A stretch of 64,000 bases of DNA. Source: Exophiala sp. HKRS030. Lineage: Eukaryota > Ascomycota > Eurotiomycetes > Chaetothyriales > Herpotrichiellaceae. Position 1 is the first letter of the stretch, and each line of letters begins with the position of its first letter. The stretch spans positions 310,001 to 374,000 of the forward strand of contig JAHWDD010000006.1 in assembly GCA_023897205.1 (NCBI GenBank), read 5' to 3'. Below the pieces are notes generated by a model. The model did no database searches. It was not told where the DNA came from and saw only the letters and a program-made list of their open reading frames with translations. Of this stretch, positions 11,270 to 18,796 are shown one piece after another. Made by a program: the position numbers and the translations under genes.

Positions 11270-11814
11270 CTTGTGATTGAGTAATAGGACTAGAGAGGAA
11301 GTAAGGTGTTGAATTGATACAATGAAGTCGATGTGCTTTGGAAGATCCTCAGACAACAACAACAACAAGAGAGGAAATTTTCGAGAAGAAAAAGAGTTAT
11401 GAAAGTTGAGCTGGACGCTGAAGAAAGATGGATGCGGCTGCCTCAGAAACCGAATCCGCTAAAATAAAAAAAATTCTTAGGACGCTTCAATGCAACTCCG
11501 CAGCGCAGCCTTATCTTATCGAGTCTCATCAGGCTGTGATGCTTAACTAAGCCACCCAATAAGCCAGCCTTGTAGGAGCCTGTGGGAGCCTTGCGGGCGC
11601 AGGCAGAAGATCCACCAGCTGCGCTCTCTTACGTCGTCGCGTCGCAATTTAATTCCCATGACGCGCTTTGTTAAGTACAGTGTATTTGCCTCATCAGCCT
11701 CTCTACCAACAGCGCCATTACTACGCATCTTGCATACGCAGGACTCCATGTCCATGTCCGTCGAAGGCAACGTCCAGGCCTGGACCTCGTCATGATCTTA
11801 TTGTATAGCCCAAC
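11270..11814. promoter_or_regulatory. Shared divergent promoter, FPR4-REV1
   Basis: 545 bp between two divergent start codons. It must hold both 5' UTRs and core promoters. No element in it was recognised with confidence. Confidence 0.5.
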
Positions 11815-14800
11815 ATGGGCTCCAGGCTAGAAAAGAACTCTACCTCGGTGCGCAAGCGCATTGAAAGCCACACCTTTAGCGATGAGCAGGGCGAAGAATA
11901 TGAAGGCTCCAAGTTCGGCGGATTCGCCGATTATATGCGGCGGAAGAAGATCAAATTGCAGAATCTTGATGCTGAAATACGATCGCACTCCACCGACAAA
12001 CCTCCCATTTTTCGCGGGGTGGTAGTCCATGTTAATGGCTATACTCAGCCCTCGTTGAGTGACCTCCATAACCTGGTGGTCAGCCATGGGGGTGGCTTTC
12101 TACAATATCTCGATGGCAAGACTGCTGTCACGCACGTTGTTGCAAGTAATTTGACCCCAAAGAAAGCAGTCGACTTTGCCCGATATCGTATTGTCAAGCC
12201 TGGCTGGATCGTCGATAGTGTCAAGGCTAGCAGGCTCTTGCCCTGGGATGCCTACAGGCTGGTGGATGAGGGGGTGACACAGAAGGTGTTGGGCTTTGAG
12301 AATGGCCAGATGATCAGCCAAACCAATGAGAAAAAACACACGTATCGCGACCAGAGCGAAACCAGCTGGTATACTTCGCAGTTACGCCAAGGGGGAGATG
12401 TTGAGGCTGGAACTCGTCATTCCTCAAATTCGCAGAGCGTACCTGAGGGCCCGGCTATTGAGCCCATTGACCGAAGCGATGCAGGCTTACATCAAAGCAG
12501 CAGTGTGGCAACTCCGCCAGTACCTGAAGTGCAGCAGGAGATCGTGGCATTGTCCAGAGAAGACAACTCAGCATCTAGTGCACGAGATCGTGCACAGTCT
12601 CCTCTACCCTCTCCGTCATCGTCTCCTTCCCATCCTCTGCCGTTTTCGGTTCTAAATGCAGGGCAGAAGCCCGAGAAACGTCAGTTAACGGCTGAAGAGC
12701 ATAATGCTCTCCTCCTTCAAAATCCACACATGGCCAAGTCTAGTACTGCAAACCCTGATTTCATCAACCAGTACTACCGGGAGTCGAGACTACATCATTT
12801 GTCCACTTGGAAAGCTGAACTCAAAGCACAAATGCAGGCACGCGCTCAAGAAAAGTCCTCGTCGCAAAAATCCAAGCAAAGTACAAAACCAGGCGCGAGA
12901 AGGTATGTCATGCATGTAGATTTTGACAGCTTCTTTGCTGCAGTCTCACTCCGCAAGCATCCTCACCTGTCAGACAAACCAGTTGTGATCGCACATGGAA
13001 GTGGCCCAGGATCGGAAATTGCCAGTTGCAATTATCCCGCGAGACAATTTGGCGTCAAGAATGGGATGTGGATGAAGACAGCGCTTGAACTCTGCTCGGA
13101 TCTAAAAGTTCTGCCATACGACTACAAGGCATACGAGGAAGCTAGTCGCCAGTTCTACGACTCAATTTTGGCAATTGATGGTATCGTCCAGAGTATCAGC
13201 ATTGATGAAGCCTTGATTGATGTCAGCGAACAATGCATCAAAGCTGGCGGATCGGATGGGCGGGGCATCTCAGAAGGCTCCCTTTATCGTGAGCAAGAAG
13301 CTGCACAACGTCTTGGTGAAGAGTTGAGAGCCTCGGTGAAGGAAAAAACTGGATGTGACGTTTCGGTTGGTATTGGAGGAAACATTCTCCTGGCGAAAGT
13401 CGCATTAAGGAAGGCTAAGCCAGCTGGACAGCATCTGATCAAGCCGGAGGACATACTCGACTTCATCGGCGAACTTACTGTTACCGAACTTCCAGGCGTT
13501 GCTTGGAGTATAGGTAACAAGCTGGAAGACATAGGCATCAGGTTCGTGAAGGATCTTCGTTCGTGTACTAAGGAGCGATTAATCAACACCTTGGGCCCAA
13601 AGACTGGTGGAAAGCTGTGGGATTATTCTCGAGGAATCGACAAGCAGGAGGTCGGTGAACAGGTGGTTCGCAAGTCAGTTTCGGCAGAGATCAATTGGGG
13701 GATCAGGTTCATTAACCAACAGCAAGCGGAAGACTTCGTACAGAGTCTTTCCGATGAGCTGTCAAGGCGCTTGCTCGAACAGCTTGTGAAAGGAAAGCAA
13801 TTGACGATGAAAATAATGCGGAAAGCTGCCGATGCAGGTCTGGATCCGCCCAAAAATCTCGGCCATGGCAAGTGTGATACTTTCAACAAGAGTGTAATGC
13901 TCGGTGTCGCCACGAACGACGGGGTGGTTCTTGGAAGAGAAGCTATTTCCATTCTACGAAGCTACAATTTCCCCCCTGGAGAACTTCGAGGACTCGGTGT
14001 TCAGATGCAGAAACTGGAGCCCTTGAAACCTTCAGGGACGGGCGGCTCTGGCCTCTCTGACGGTAGTCAGCGCCGGCTGCAATTCAAAAAGCCTTCTACA
14101 CCATCTCGACCTGCAGAACAGCCTGGACTCCGCACCACCTCTCGATCAGCCCTTCACTCCCCTAAGATTAAGCATATCGAAGATCCCATCGAAGAGATCC
14201 CCACCCCAGAGAAAGGAAAATTGCATGATAGTGTTTACAGTGCCTTGGATTACCAAGCCAACGATGCGACTGAGCAAAGACCTCTTAACGTGAGTGGCAC
14301 TCAGTTCATCATGCCTTCCCAGATCGATCCAACAGTACTGGCCGAGCTCCCCTCTGAAATAAGAACGAAGCTTGCTCCTAAACAAAAGAGTATCATGGAC
14401 AGTATAACGCGATCAACGCGACCACAAACACCTCTAATAGATGGCAACTCAAGATCAACCTCGCCCTATCTTAGTGACAACGAAGCAACGCTACCACGGC
14501 CAAGTCAGATTGACCCAGAAGCGCTAGCTGCGCTTCCTCAGGACCTCAGGGACGAGATACTGGCCCAATACAAGGCCCAAGAAAACGGAGAGTCGACTTC
14601 ACGAGCTATAGCATATTCCCCTCGAAAACCCAAAGCTCTCTCAACCTCAAAAAAGATTCCTGTAACTCCCACGAAGCGACAGAAAACTTCTAGTCTATTC
14701 GGTAAAGTGAAGCCAAAAAGGGTTGGCGATGTCTCCTCATCCACTCTCACTCAGTCCAACTTTATCTCTGCTCCAAGAGCAGCAGAGTGTCATCAAAGTT

Positions 14801-15345
14801 CAAACCAAGATGATGAAGAAATCTCTGAGTCTTTTCTGAACGAATTACCAGAAGACATTCGCCTCGAAATCCTGGAAGAACAGAAGAGAGGCAGGATGAA
14901 GGCAAAGTCTGGCCTTAATTTCGAGAGCGTTAGAAAAAAGACGAAGGTAACAATTGCAGTCGAGTCTGGCGTCGGAGGTCAGCAAAAATTGCAGCTAGCC
15001 CAACAACCAGATAAACCAACCTTCACTTCTCAAAAGCTGAGTGCTCTGCCAGAGTTGCGTGATGCAATATCTGCATGGGTCAGAGAGTTTTCTTCTGCTG
15101 GAGATGGCCCGGACCCGGAAGATGTCAATGCTTTGGCCGATTACCTCGTCAAAGTGGTCGGCATCGAGCGAGACATGGCCAAATCTGTTGCTGTCGTCAA
15201 TTGGCTCGGGTTGATCATTGAATATGAAAATTTCACAGGCGAGGATGTTCGTGGTGCTTGGGAAAGGGCTCTTGCGATTTTGAAGCATCATGTCCAGATA
15301 GCGATTAAAGACAGAGGTCTGCCGGCGGTCGTCTTCGAATGGTGA
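11815..15345 (+). CDS. REV1: REV1 translesion DNA polymerase (deoxycytidyl transferase)
   Basis: Y-family polymerase that inserts dCMP opposite lesions and scaffolds polymerase zeta in translesion synthesis. The gene is a single 1176-codon exon. Order: BRCT domain about 62-151 (FRGVVVHVNGYTQPS, WIVDSVKASRLLPW); Ser/Pro-rich linker; Y-family catalytic core from about 362 with metal-binding Asp369 (HVDFDSFF), Asp464 and Glu465 (SISIDEALIDVS); helix-hairpin-helix (ELPGVAWSIGNKLEDIG); little-finger; then ubiquitin-binding-motif copies around 837-850 (TVLAELPSEIR), 897-910 (ALAALPQDLRDEIL) and 1005-1015 (LNELPEDIRLEIL); and a C-terminal helical domain from about 1060. All catalytic residues are present. 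The third UBM-like copy is one more than the usual two. Confidence 0.96.
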   Translation: MGSRLEKNSTSVRKRIESHTFSDEQGEEYEGSKFGGFADYMRRKKIKLQNLDAEIRSHSTDKPPIFRGVVVHVNGYTQPSLSDLHNLVVSHGGGFLQYLDGKTAVTHVVASNLTPKKAVDFARYRIVKPGWIVDSVKASRLLPWDAYRLVDEGVTQKVLGFENGQMISQTNEKKHTYRDQSETSWYTSQLRQGGDVEAGTRHSSNSQSVPEGPAIEPIDRSDAGLHQSSSVATPPVPEVQQEIVALSREDNSASSARDRAQSPLPSPSSSPSHPLPFSVLNAGQKPEKRQLTAEEHNALLLQNPHMAKSSTANPDFINQYYRESRLHHLSTWKAELKAQMQARAQEKSSSQKSKQSTKPGARRYVMHVDFDSFFAAVSLRKHPHLSDKPVVIAHGSGPGSEIASCNYPARQFGVKNGMWMKTALELCSDLKVLPYDYKAYEEASRQFYDSILAIDGIVQSISIDEALIDVSEQCIKAGGSDGRGISEGSLYREQEAAQRLGEELRASVKEKTGCDVSVGIGGNILLAKVALRKAKPAGQHLIKPEDILDFIGELTVTELPGVAWSIGNKLEDIGIRFVKDLRSCTKERLINTLGPKTGGKLWDYSRGIDKQEVGEQVVRKSVSAEINWGIRFINQQQAEDFVQSLSDELSRRLLEQLVKGKQLTMKIMRKAADAGLDPPKNLGHGKCDTFNKSVMLGVATNDGVVLGREAISILRSYNFPPGELRGLGVQMQKLEPLKPSGTGGSGLSDGSQRRLQFKKPSTPSRPAEQPGLRTTSRSALHSPKIKHIEDPIEEIPTPEKGKLHDSVYSALDYQANDATEQRPLNVSGTQFIMPSQIDPTVLAELPSEIRTKLAPKQKSIMDSITRSTRPQTPLIDGNSRSTSPYLSDNEATLPRPSQIDPEALAALPQDLRDEILAQYKAQENGESTSRAIAYSPRKPKALSTSKKIPVTPTKRQKTSSLFGKVKPKRVGDVSSSTLTQSNFISAPRAAECHQSSNQDDEEISESFLNELPEDIRLEILEEQKRGRMKAKSGLNFESVRKKTKVTIAVESGVGGQQKLQLAQQPDKPTFTSQKLSALPELRDAISAWVREFSSAGDGPDPEDVNALADYLVKVVGIERDMAKSVAVVNWLGLIIEYENFTGEDVRGAWERALAILKHHVQIAIKDRGLPAVVFEW

Positions 15346-15643: not shown

Positions 15644-18600
15644 ATGCCGTTCACTCTGGCGGCTAGTCGCAAGCGTCGTCAATCGTCAAAAGTCAACCCC
15701 CCAACGAACAGAGGCAATACAAGCTCTCGATCCTCCAAAATACCCCGGTTGAATCATCTTCTCTACGATGGAACAAGCTCAAGGTCAATAGAATCCACCA
15801 GCACCGGTCAGTCCAAGACCAGCGTCAAGACTCAGATCAGGAGAGGGGTTACAAACATCAAGACAATCCTGAAATTGGGAGACAAGCATAATGCTGCCAC
15901 ACTACAGCCTCAGGCTTGCTTCGCCTCTGCACATAGCTTGCCGACGAATTACATTCTCCAGAATAATTCCAGTGCCACAACCCTTTGCCGGCCATTGACG
16001 ATCACATTGACTGGCATGAACCATGAAGACGGTACGACTACCGCACCCACTGTGAACAGTGCACGAACGAGCCCTGGACCTCGCGGGTTGCAAGATGTTG
16101 GTGTCGCAGTCGAAAAAGCTTCTGGTCGAGACGGTCGTTACATCCGTCGGAGCCAGTCTGTTCCAGGTTTGCATCGTGCCATTGCACACAAGTTTCATCA
16201 AGCCTTCAGTAACCCAACCGTTGTGAAAAGGGCCGATTTGCGGTCCCGTCCAAGTATTCAGACCTTTGCGCTAGATGCCGCAGAAACGAACAGTGTCCTA
16301 CTGTCTTCGACAGCGTCTACTCTCAACAGTGGTTGGGGATCAACAGCCGAAAGAGCATCGTCAAGTCCGCTCACATCTATTCCTATCACACCTACTTCTA
16401 TCATGGGTTATCAAGAGAGTTTGAACTCATTTGAAACCGATCGCCAGCCATACGCGTTGGAGACCCGGATCCTGACTCCTATCCCGGAAATCAAGGTATC
16501 GCCCAGCATCACTATCAGGACCGTCGAATCTGCTGCTGCGGCTAAAGCCTTTTTTGAAACGCATTTCAATTCCTTGCTCAAGGAGGCCTCTGGAAGATCA
16601 CTTCGGCGACGTGAATTGGAGTTCAAACTCAAAGAACACCAGTTTCCCACCAACAGTCAGTATCGGGCCAAGAGAGCGTGGGAGCAGGCAGAGAGTGAGA
16701 ATCTCAGACGGAGTCGAGTACTCAAGAACACCACCAACTCTGCCAAAGCCGCCCAAGGAATACATATTGGTGGCTTTGAAGTTATCAGTATTCTTGGGAA
16801 GGGAAGCTTCGGTGTTGTCCGTCTTATCAAAGGCAAGCCGGAGACGGAGGCAAGTGAGAATGACACCACGCAGATCCAAAGCCAAGGGGGGCGTAAGTCT
16901 TGTTGGGTTAGCGTACCGACGTCGTCTGCGCGCTGGCCTAACCCATTGCGTGAGAAGGGGAGGGAATTAGTCAGGGAGAATAAAGAAGTTTTCGCCATGA
17001 AAGTCATTCGAAAGTCCGACATGATTCGAAACGCTCAAGAGGGCCATCTCCGGGCGGAACGAGACTTCCTGGTTGCCGCCGAAGGGTCAAAATGGATTAT
17101 TCCTTTGATCGCTGCCTTCCAAGATCCGAAGCATTTGTACCTTGTAATGGAGTTTTGCATCGGAGGCGACTTTTTGGGACTCCTCATTCGGAAAAATGTC
17201 CTCAGCGAAGACATCACGAGGTGGTATATCGCCGAGATGATCCTATGTGTCGAGGAAGCTCATCGGTTGAGATGGATTCACCGCGATGTGAAACCCGACA
17301 ATTTCCTCGTTACCCATGACGGGCACTTGAAAATCTCCGACTTCGGTCTCGCATTCGACGGAGATTGGAGCCACGACCAAAAGTTCTACCAAAACAGCCG
17401 ACACTCACTACTAGATCAATTGGGGATTTACATCGAAGGCGACGAGCAGGACAAGCAGGAAAGAGGTTTTGGGCCCTACCCATCCAGAGCTTCAAGATCG
17501 ACCCAACAACCGCTGCCTATCAACGCTGAAACAGAGTCGAAGGATGAACCGGGTATGGGCGAGCCAATCCTCGACTGGCGTAATCGTGCTCAACGGCGAC
17601 GTCTAGCACGTTCTGTGGTCGGTACATCTCAGTACATGGCCCCAGAAGTCATTCGGGGCGAATTGTACGATGGGCGATGTGACTAGTGGAGCATTGGAAT
17701 CATCTTGTATGAGTGCCTTTTCGGCTTTACTCCGTTCGCCTGTGACGATCGCCATCAGACCAAGCTCAGGATCCTCCAGCACAGGAAAGAATTGTCGTTT
17801 CCTGAACGAGCACCTCCTTTTGCACCGAGTGCGGAAGCTGCGGACCTAATTTTGCAGCTTCTAGTTGAAAAGGAACGTCGACTTTGCAGTAAACAATATC
17901 AGATCAATGACTACACCAGGAGAATTATTGGAGGTAAGGTGGTCAAATTCGAAGCCGACAAAACGAGCCGAACCTACGACGGGTACTTTGTGTACGCAAA
18001 TGACGCGGGAGAGATCAAACGCCATCCTTTTTTCCGTGACGTCGACTGGGCCACCGTTCACCTGCGACGGCCTCCCTATATCCCTCGCGTGAACCACTGG
18101 GAAGATACGAGATATTTCCAAGAAGATGAACCCGTTTCCGACATTGACTCCACGAGCACTTTTGCAGAAGGAAATGACGAGTTTATTCAAGCTCTTGACG
18201 AACATGCTGGGCTCACCCTGTTACCAACGGCGGCTCATCCGTCACCCAATGTCAGTCAACATCACCATGAAGACCAAAATATCGTGCCATCACTCGCCCT
18301 CAATATGCCTCAAAAGGATGGTGCTCGACTAATCCTAGGCCTTGCTCGGCCTGATAGTCTGGCCGATATGAAAAATCCATTGTTGGTGCCCCTCGAAACG
18401 ACAATGGCGGGTCTCGACGAAAATAAATCACTCGGACGTGACAATACCTATCAGGTCGACGGCCCCAACGAGTACCTACGCGCAGGGTGCACGAAGCCGG
18501 ACACGAGACAGAAGGACAGGCGACGACCACGGGACATTATCTTGCGAGACACAAGCACCGATCGTGAGGCGATGAGAATACGGAAGGCGTCGGCTTTCCT

Positions 18601-18796
18601 TGGCTATGACTATCGACAGCCTGCGATGGTCAAGGACATTGTTGACCAAGTGTTGTTGGAAGATCTTGAAATCGCAAAAGCCAAACCCGAATGGGACACT
18701 AGCGATGTCGAGGATCGTGATCTAGCCTTTGAGAAAGGACTCCTTGTTGGCGCAGCAGATCATATATCGCCAACCCAGAAATCAGTGACGATGTAG
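15644..18796 (+). CDS. AGC/NDR-type Ser/Thr protein kinase with an in-frame TAG in the kinase domain
   Basis: One reading frame runs from the ATG at 15644 to the stop at 18794-18796, broken only by TAG at 17684-17686. Residues 1 to about 290 are Ser/Thr-rich and poorly conserved. An NDR-like helical segment follows (KAFFETHFNSLLKEAS...RRRELEFKLKE), then the kinase domain from about 374: glycine loop LGKGSFGVVRL, VAIK-like FAMKVIRKSDMI, catalytic HRDVKPDNFL, DFGLAF, an NDR-type insert, and activation/P+1 loop VGTSQYMAPEVI. After ...YDGRCD comes TAG, then WSIGIILYECLFGFTPF and the remaining subdomains plus an AGC-tail. AGC kinases read DWWS here, so TAG replaces a Trp codon. An in-frame 78-nt intron is likely at 16893-16970 (GTAAGT, CTAAC branch, TTAG). 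Whether the gene is a pseudogene, edited, or read through cannot be told from DNA. See the findings. Confidence 0.85.
16893..16970 (+). other. Probable in-frame intron of the kinase gene
   Basis: 78 nt (26 codons, no stop) with donor GTAAGT, a perfect CTAAC branch word and acceptor TTAG. Removing it shortens a non-conserved insert between the glycine loop and the catalytic Lys strand and leaves the frame intact. Confidence 0.6.
17684..17686 (+). other. In-frame TAG replacing Trp of the DWWS motif
   Basis: Codons GAC TAG TGG AGC read D-stop-W-S. A single A-to-G change gives TGG and the AGC-kinase motif DWWS. The frame is open for 680 codons before and 369 sense codons after. Confidence 0.95.

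Follow-up and report, generated by a model that had tools for sequence, protein, structure and literature searches.

The kinase gene and its in-frame TAG

The window, a stretch of 64,000 nucleotides from Exophiala sp. HKRS030, sits on a 4.56-Mb contig of a 59.8-Mb assembly and holds a REV1 gene (11809..15345, plus strand) and, next to it on the same strand, a protein kinase gene. The upstream part of the kinase (15644..17683, plus strand) begins with the ATG at 15644 and comprises 680 codons, with the N-terminal region and the glycine loop, HRD, DFG and APE motifs, and ends in ...YDGRCD (last codon 17681-17683). An in-frame TAG follows (17684..17686, plus strand) where the DWWS motif would have its first Trp codon, with A17685 as the candidate A-to-I editing site. 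The frame continues with 369 sense codons starting WSIGIILYECLFGFTPF, free of further stops and of frameshifts, and closes again with TAG (18794..18796, plus strand). This downstream part (WSIGII..., 17687..18793, plus strand) contains the rest of the kinase domain, the AGC tail and the C-terminal region, its first Met being residue 207 (18305). The first-pass annotation had given the same 680 codons, TAG and 369 sense codons, which match the sequence exactly. A variant genetic code was ruled out, as the kinase gene itself terminates with TAG.

The Pfam protein kinase domain (Pkinase) was identified in both pieces, the downstream piece alone scoring below the cut-off (19.6 vs 31.7 bits). The nearest solved structures are the NDR kinases STK38 (6bxi) and CBK1 (4lqp). 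The upstream piece aligns to residue 223 of STK38 and to chain residue 345 of CBK1, and the downstream piece aligns from 225 and 347 respectively. These alignment ends indicate that the TAG takes the place of a single residue, the initial Trp of DWWS, which we take to be the start of helix F. Compared with the hypothetical protein LTS17_010218 of Exophiala oligosperma, whose public model omits the region around the stop, identity is 99.85% upstream of the stop (674 residues) and 98.5% downstream of it (336 residues). By these sequence comparisons the window gene is an AGC/NDR kinase of Exophiala.

It is likely an orthologue of Fusarium PUK1 (FGRRES_01058) and Neurospora stk-21 (NCU03242), both known here from published descriptions. 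Like them, the window gene encodes a protein kinase with a UAG in the kinase domain. The AGC/NDR-type domain is present (stk-21 has been classed as AGC/NDR; PMC3591445), and so is the UAG at the first Trp of the WW pair, compared with A1831 of PUK1 and A1628 of NCU03242 by published description. In F. graminearum, the kinase domain of PUK1 is reported to contain two tandem UAG codons that become UGG by editing in perithecia. N. crassa NCU03242 carries UAGUGG and its first codon is edited, also in perithecia, F. verticillioides carries UGGUAG with the second codon edited, and M. oryzae and C. paspali have a genomic G at the site (PMC4817773). The window has the arrangement of NCU03242, UAG then UGG, and differs from Fusarium PUK1 in having only the first of the two stops. 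The same report describes damaged ascospores upon PUK1 deletion (PMC4817773), and a later one describes non-editable PUK1 alleles that fail to complement (PMC7306014). The Sordariomycete genes differ from the window gene in that editing is proven for them, whereas the window gene belongs to a Chaetothyriales clade, in the Eurotiomycetes, and its editing is a prediction. A family member from Verticillium longisporum (P0230) has a model with a duplicated kinase-domain stretch that omits the DWW region, and probably hides a stop as well.

Codon state among homologues

Three protein searches provided the homologues, the best 120 of 1223, all 48 and the best 120 of 2504 matches being taken; the two larger searches (1223 and 2504 matches) scored only about 8000 candidates each. 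They gave 283 distinct homologues, which with the window gene and a second copy described below make 285. After setting aside 37 downstream pieces (P0121-P0152 and five more) and 8 uncallable rows, 240 rows were scored: 183 with Trp, 54 with a stop, 2 with Tyr and 1 with Leu, proportions that describe a sample of near relatives consisting of best matches only. The 54 stop rows are the window, 42 proteins whose last residue is the Asp directly preceding the site, and 11 models that skip ahead to precisely the residue following it. With 42 of the 283 homologues terminating exactly at ...YD(G/A)RCD and 11 more making an exact jump, the position of the stop is far beyond chance. Where a sense codon is present it encodes Trp in 183 of 186 rows, so that stop and Trp substitute for each other.

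The truncated models with species names come from Exophiala spinifera, E. viscosa, E. aquamarina, Capronia coronata, Cladophialophora psammophila, C. bantiana, C. carrionii, C. yegresii, Fonsecaea multimorphosa, Cyphellophora europaea and Chaetothyriales sp. (the last record marked 'partial'). The codon was read as DNA only in the window, and in the 42 truncated proteins TAG, TAA or TGA are all possible. The jumping models belong to Fonsecaea erecta, F. nubica, E. dermatitidis, a protein labelled Elasticomyces elasticus, and seven fungi that we take to be members of the order Pleosporales: Paraphaeosphaeria sporulosa, P. minitans, Karstenula, Bimuria, Dendryphion, Westerdykella and Boeremia. 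In these models the omitted stretches end directly before the second Trp codon; the codon there must accordingly end in AG and, among stops, be TAG. The same TAG is implied by this reasoning in the seven Pleosporales proteins, although an argument from the acceptor can reveal TAG only and is no measure of how frequent TAA or TGA are.

The protein labelled Elasticomyces elasticus (P0006) groups within Exophiala beside E. viscosa. The name is presumably that of a Dothideomycete, and the record may be mislabelled.

Trp was found at the site in the named rows of Eurotiales (Penicillium, Paecilomyces) and of Onygenales, and also in Capronia epimyces and E. mesophila. The state of the named Eurotiales rows would set the window apart from An-Stk21 (AN10485) of Aspergillus nidulans, a fungus of the same class whose kinase is listed as the stk-21 orthologue; its deletion is given as viable and the entry lists no phenotype (PMC3591445). 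Tyr occupies the site in P0058 and P0206 and Leu in P0256. Tyr codons are one step from TAG and two from TGG, and the three rows may mark lineages with a different way out of the stop.

The stop could also be spliced out. A 39-base GT...TAG stretch of 13 codons (17648..17686, plus strand) ends at the stop, and its counterpart is left out as an 'intron' in gene models of other species. Its ends and frame are correct for a mini-intron; P0006, P0015, P0016, P0161, P0171, P0217 and P0228 omit the same stretch, and P0022, P0169, P0170 and P0222 omit a longer one with the same acceptor. However, splicing would remove VIRGELYDGRCD, part of the conserved core, most residues of which are invariant or nearly so in 10 aligned Trp-bearing proteins. 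The donors vary by species while the acceptor always falls on the stop, which is the mark of a program avoiding a stop. In PUK1 the stops are likewise hidden by automated annotation with a false intron (PMC4817773); that intron was disproved by cDNA (PMC4817773, PMC7306014), and the equivalent in CHE1 was judged erroneous (PMC11169179). Real splicing at 17648-17686 is thus highly improbable, and from the sequences compared the 39-base 'intron' is most likely an annotation artefact that hides the stop. Three annotation errors have been described for the edited CHE1 stop, namely a model that ends at the stop, one that starts at a later Met and a small false intron (PMC11169179). All three occur among the models of this kinase, and many public models of it are likely wrong.

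Changes of state in the family

The family tree (FastTree) was built from 229 upstream sequences, 11 short rows being dropped and the site itself left out. On this tree, the 226 rows in either state cannot be explained with fewer than 15 switches between stop and Trp. A quick IQ-TREE tree of 66 rows (47 stop, 19 Trp), made up of a clade of 61 and 5 others, requires at least 11 changes of state, of which at least 9 are forced by branches with SH-aLRT of 95 or more. Both counts take gain and loss together, and three long rows (P0101, P0087 and P0037) are possibly misplaced according to a warning of the tree program. Close relatives may differ at the codon, as P0067 (Trp) and P0099 (stop) do.

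The clade of 61 rows has support values of 88 (FastTree) and 93 (SH-aLRT) and comprises 47 rows with a stop and 14 with Trp. It is taken as Chaetothyriales from its named members, with one discordant name (Elasticomyces), and its metagenome rows were assigned to the order by their position in the tree. The first-pass annotation had named a uniform TGG among relatives as part of a refutation of editing; with a stop in 47 of these 61 rows, no such uniformity was found.

Constraint downstream of the stop

The divergence downstream of the stop relative to that upstream was compared at the protein level, with pairwise ratios that are mutually non-independent: the median was 1.21 (IQR 1.05-1.34) for 17 stop-bearing sequences and 1.22 (IQR 1.13-1.33) for 18 Trp-bearing ones. 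The stop-bearing set consists of the sequences with both halves at hand, 12 of the 17 being paired by inference from contigs of identical length, and the Trp-bearing set of 11 of the clade's 14 plus 7 from outside the clade. A partner could be assigned to 13 of the 42 truncated proteins, one pair with a partial downstream piece being left out; for the 29 without a listed partner a gene model of the second half was perhaps never made. The sequence after the stop is equally constrained in stop-bearing and Trp-bearing lineages.

Relaxed selection after the codon had been named at first pass as a result that would refute the editing proposal, and was not found at this protein level (1.21 vs 1.22). 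The earlier argument that the intact downstream sequence speaks against an old pseudogene holds, given the equal constraint and the lack of a second stop in 369 codons. A pseudogene was rejected on finding neither relaxed constraint nor further disabling changes. A recent nonsense mutation, a dying gene or a sequencing error would account for a lone TAG, but the stop lies at the same codon in 47 of the 61 clade rows, from many assemblies, the 369 codons hold no second stop and constraint is equal, so that the probability left to this explanation is negligible. A fully constrained sequence behind a stop spread across a large clade of Eurotiomycetes means that some way of reading through it has long been at work there.

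A different possibility is that the truncated protein of 680 residues is itself the product, the frame behind the stop being preserved because it serves as a second cistron or belongs to an alternative transcript; several annotated genomes have two proteins, one ending at the stop and the other starting after it. Against this, the truncation falls within the conserved kinase core, and the divergence ratio before and after the stop equals that of intact kinases. The first Met after the stop is residue 207 of the downstream part, beyond the residues aligned with CBK1 (1-155), and reinitiation was rejected for a Met that comes too late. This explanation is very unlikely.

Base context and RNA folding

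The editing preference published for Fusarium is C or U at -2, U at -1, A or G at +1, +3 and +4, and G at +2 (PMC9600606). By this rule, 5 of the 6 positions around the A in C U [A] G U G G carry a preferred base and none a depleted one. As good a context was found in 7 of the 81 Trp codons in window open frames of at least 350 residues, some of which are no genes, and the Trp codon of the second copy scores identically to the TAG site. As GAY-TAG-TGG follows from Asp-Trp-Trp, the favourable context comes with the motif: the D-W-W residues fix bases -2 to +4 around the A near the fungal editing preference. The first-pass annotation had counted the U before the edited A in favour of editing, but this base carries no weight, being automatic in every UAG. 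A context borne by the motif may explain why the same codon became a stop in Sordariomycetes, Chaetothyriales and Pleosporales. By the same token, a G-to-A mutation at the codon could have been tolerated repeatedly, and reversed as well.

A hairpin was predicted in the RNA (17663..17712, plus strand; ±30 fold), with an inner stem that pairs 17675-17680 with 17691-17696 and an apical loop UAGU (17684-17687) that holds A17685. The A lies in a predicted apical loop in the ±12 to ±40 folds; in the ±60 fold it is paired and the hairpin is lost. Among 1028 other TAGs of the window, 326 were in loops in the ±30 fold, 103 of the 1028 with an MFE as low, and in the ±12 fold 571 were in loops and 24 had an MFE as low. 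In the Trp copy, folds of ±15 to ±30 lack a loop of this kind. The base context suits fungal A-to-I editing, and the predicted hairpin is weaker evidence of a supporting kind only.

Proposed editing and possible readthrough

Given these observations, we consider it likely that the TAG at 17684-17686, in the DWWS motif of an AGC/NDR kinase that is the predicted PUK1/stk-21 orthologue, a stop common to most of the sampled clade rows, is read as Trp via A-to-I editing of A17685. The candidate editing site in a PUK1 relative put forward at first pass gains support from the AGC/NDR kinase, the DWWS stop placed as in NCU03242, the 47 of 61 rows and the downstream constraint. Unedited mRNA would give a protein of 680 residues, breaking off in the kinase core without the remaining C-lobe and the AGC tail and probably inactive as a kinase, while editing would restore the complete enzyme with 1050 residues. 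To judge from PUK1, editing would take place during sexual development. The editor might be either Tad2-Tad3, assisted by an Ame1-like protein as in Fusarium, or a deaminase of the OLD type.

The main rival of editing is programmed translational readthrough, in which UAG is decoded at a low rate by a near-cognate tRNA and some full-length kinase is made without editing. It would account for the kept frame and the downstream constraint without an editor in Eurotiomycetes. Tyr is a residue insertable by UAG readthrough and is found in 2 of the 186 sense rows (P0058 and P0206), but the site alternates with Trp, present in 183 of them. The context UAG UGG AGC appears unlike readthrough motifs such as UGA CUA and UAG CAR YYA. 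Furthermore, editing to Trp codons in RNA is reported for the PUK1 stop of three Sordariomycetes (PMC4817773). Readthrough is accordingly unlikely, and editing is the preferred reading.

Candidate components of an editor were identified in the fungus's own genome. There are 17 matches to the deaminase family PF00383. Six DUF726 (Ame1-family) loci (L002-L007) divide into two subfamilies, with mutual identities of 44-56% among four of the six; Ame1 duplication is one proposed route to editing. Nine matches to the OTT_1508 deaminase (OLD family; L036-L043 and C3:3446008-3446178) were also found. A crude pattern scan of about 5 kb on each side of these nine recognised no C2H2 gene with an in-frame TAG and gave three weak zinc-finger pattern clusters, none taken as a C2H2 gene; an OLD-ZAO module beside the nine deaminase matches was rejected, the scan recognising no adjacent C2H2 gene. 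As a point against editing, two other families edited in Fusarium are free of in-frame stops here, PF00145 in all 8 matched stretches and PF06058 in its single one.

A second copy of the gene pair

At 3.67 Mb the same contig has a second REV1-kinase pair, arranged like the first in order and orientation (C6:3664942-3671007, L009; C6:3669847-3673332). The second kinase is intact, with 1023 residues and GAT TGG TGG at the site. It groups with E. mesophila (SH-aLRT 100), apart from the window gene, and is 44.6% identical to P0001, a near-twin of the window protein. The assembly seems to hold two divergent gene sets in this region, as a hybrid or chimaeric assembly would, and its 59.8 Mb may contain two divergent black-yeast genomes. 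If both copies shared one nucleus, an editing-dependent copy (TAG) and a hard-wired one (TGG TGG) would coexist as a natural control.

Possible editing beyond Sordariomycetes

The nearest parallel outside the kinases is the premature-stop correction in CHE1/zao (OLD-ZAO module), where a conserved stop is also changed from UAG to UGG (PMC11169179, PMC12754623); those genes differ in being zinc-finger regulators edited in hyphae or on virus infection, whereas the present one is a kinase. A 2025 comment places OLD-ZAO gene pairs in Eurotiomycetes by phylogeny (PMC12754623), so that premature-stop editing in this class is already hinted at for another gene. Against editing at A17685, a review of 2024 states that genome-wide editing was not found in A. 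nidulans (Eurotiomycetes) or Botrytis; the same review leaves it to be established in which classes of filamentous ascomycetes mRNA is edited (PMC11156358). Also against it, Feng et al. conclude that the function of Ame1, and its interaction with Tad3, arose within Sordariomycetes; for Pezizomycetes they suggest an independent origin (PMC11087585). A further point against is that individual editing sites have been reported as non-conserved between S. macrospora and P. confluens. In the titles and abstract openings of the open-licence literature, no report of this site outside Sordariomycetes was found.

We lean towards a broader reading of the sequences, in which A-to-I mRNA editing would work across Chaetothyriales and at least part of Pleosporales, and not just in Sordariomycetes and Pezizomycetes. 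The order-wide stop would have made the Stk21/PUK1 kinase dependent on editing in Chaetothyriales, with D-W-W as a built-in, near-optimal site whose codon would have switched between TGG and TAG no fewer than 15 times among the sampled members. E. oligosperma is not known to have a sexual state, which speaks against editing there. Black yeasts of this kind would, on the same reading, keep a cryptic editing stage, likely a sexual one.

A widespread editing-dependent codon in Eurotiomycetes would, if true, be new, as genome-wide editing has not been found in Aspergillus nidulans. The shared stop offers a single position, present in dozens of sequenced genomes, for addressing editing and, if the reading is true, would open a way to study cryptic sex in black yeasts of clinical relevance.
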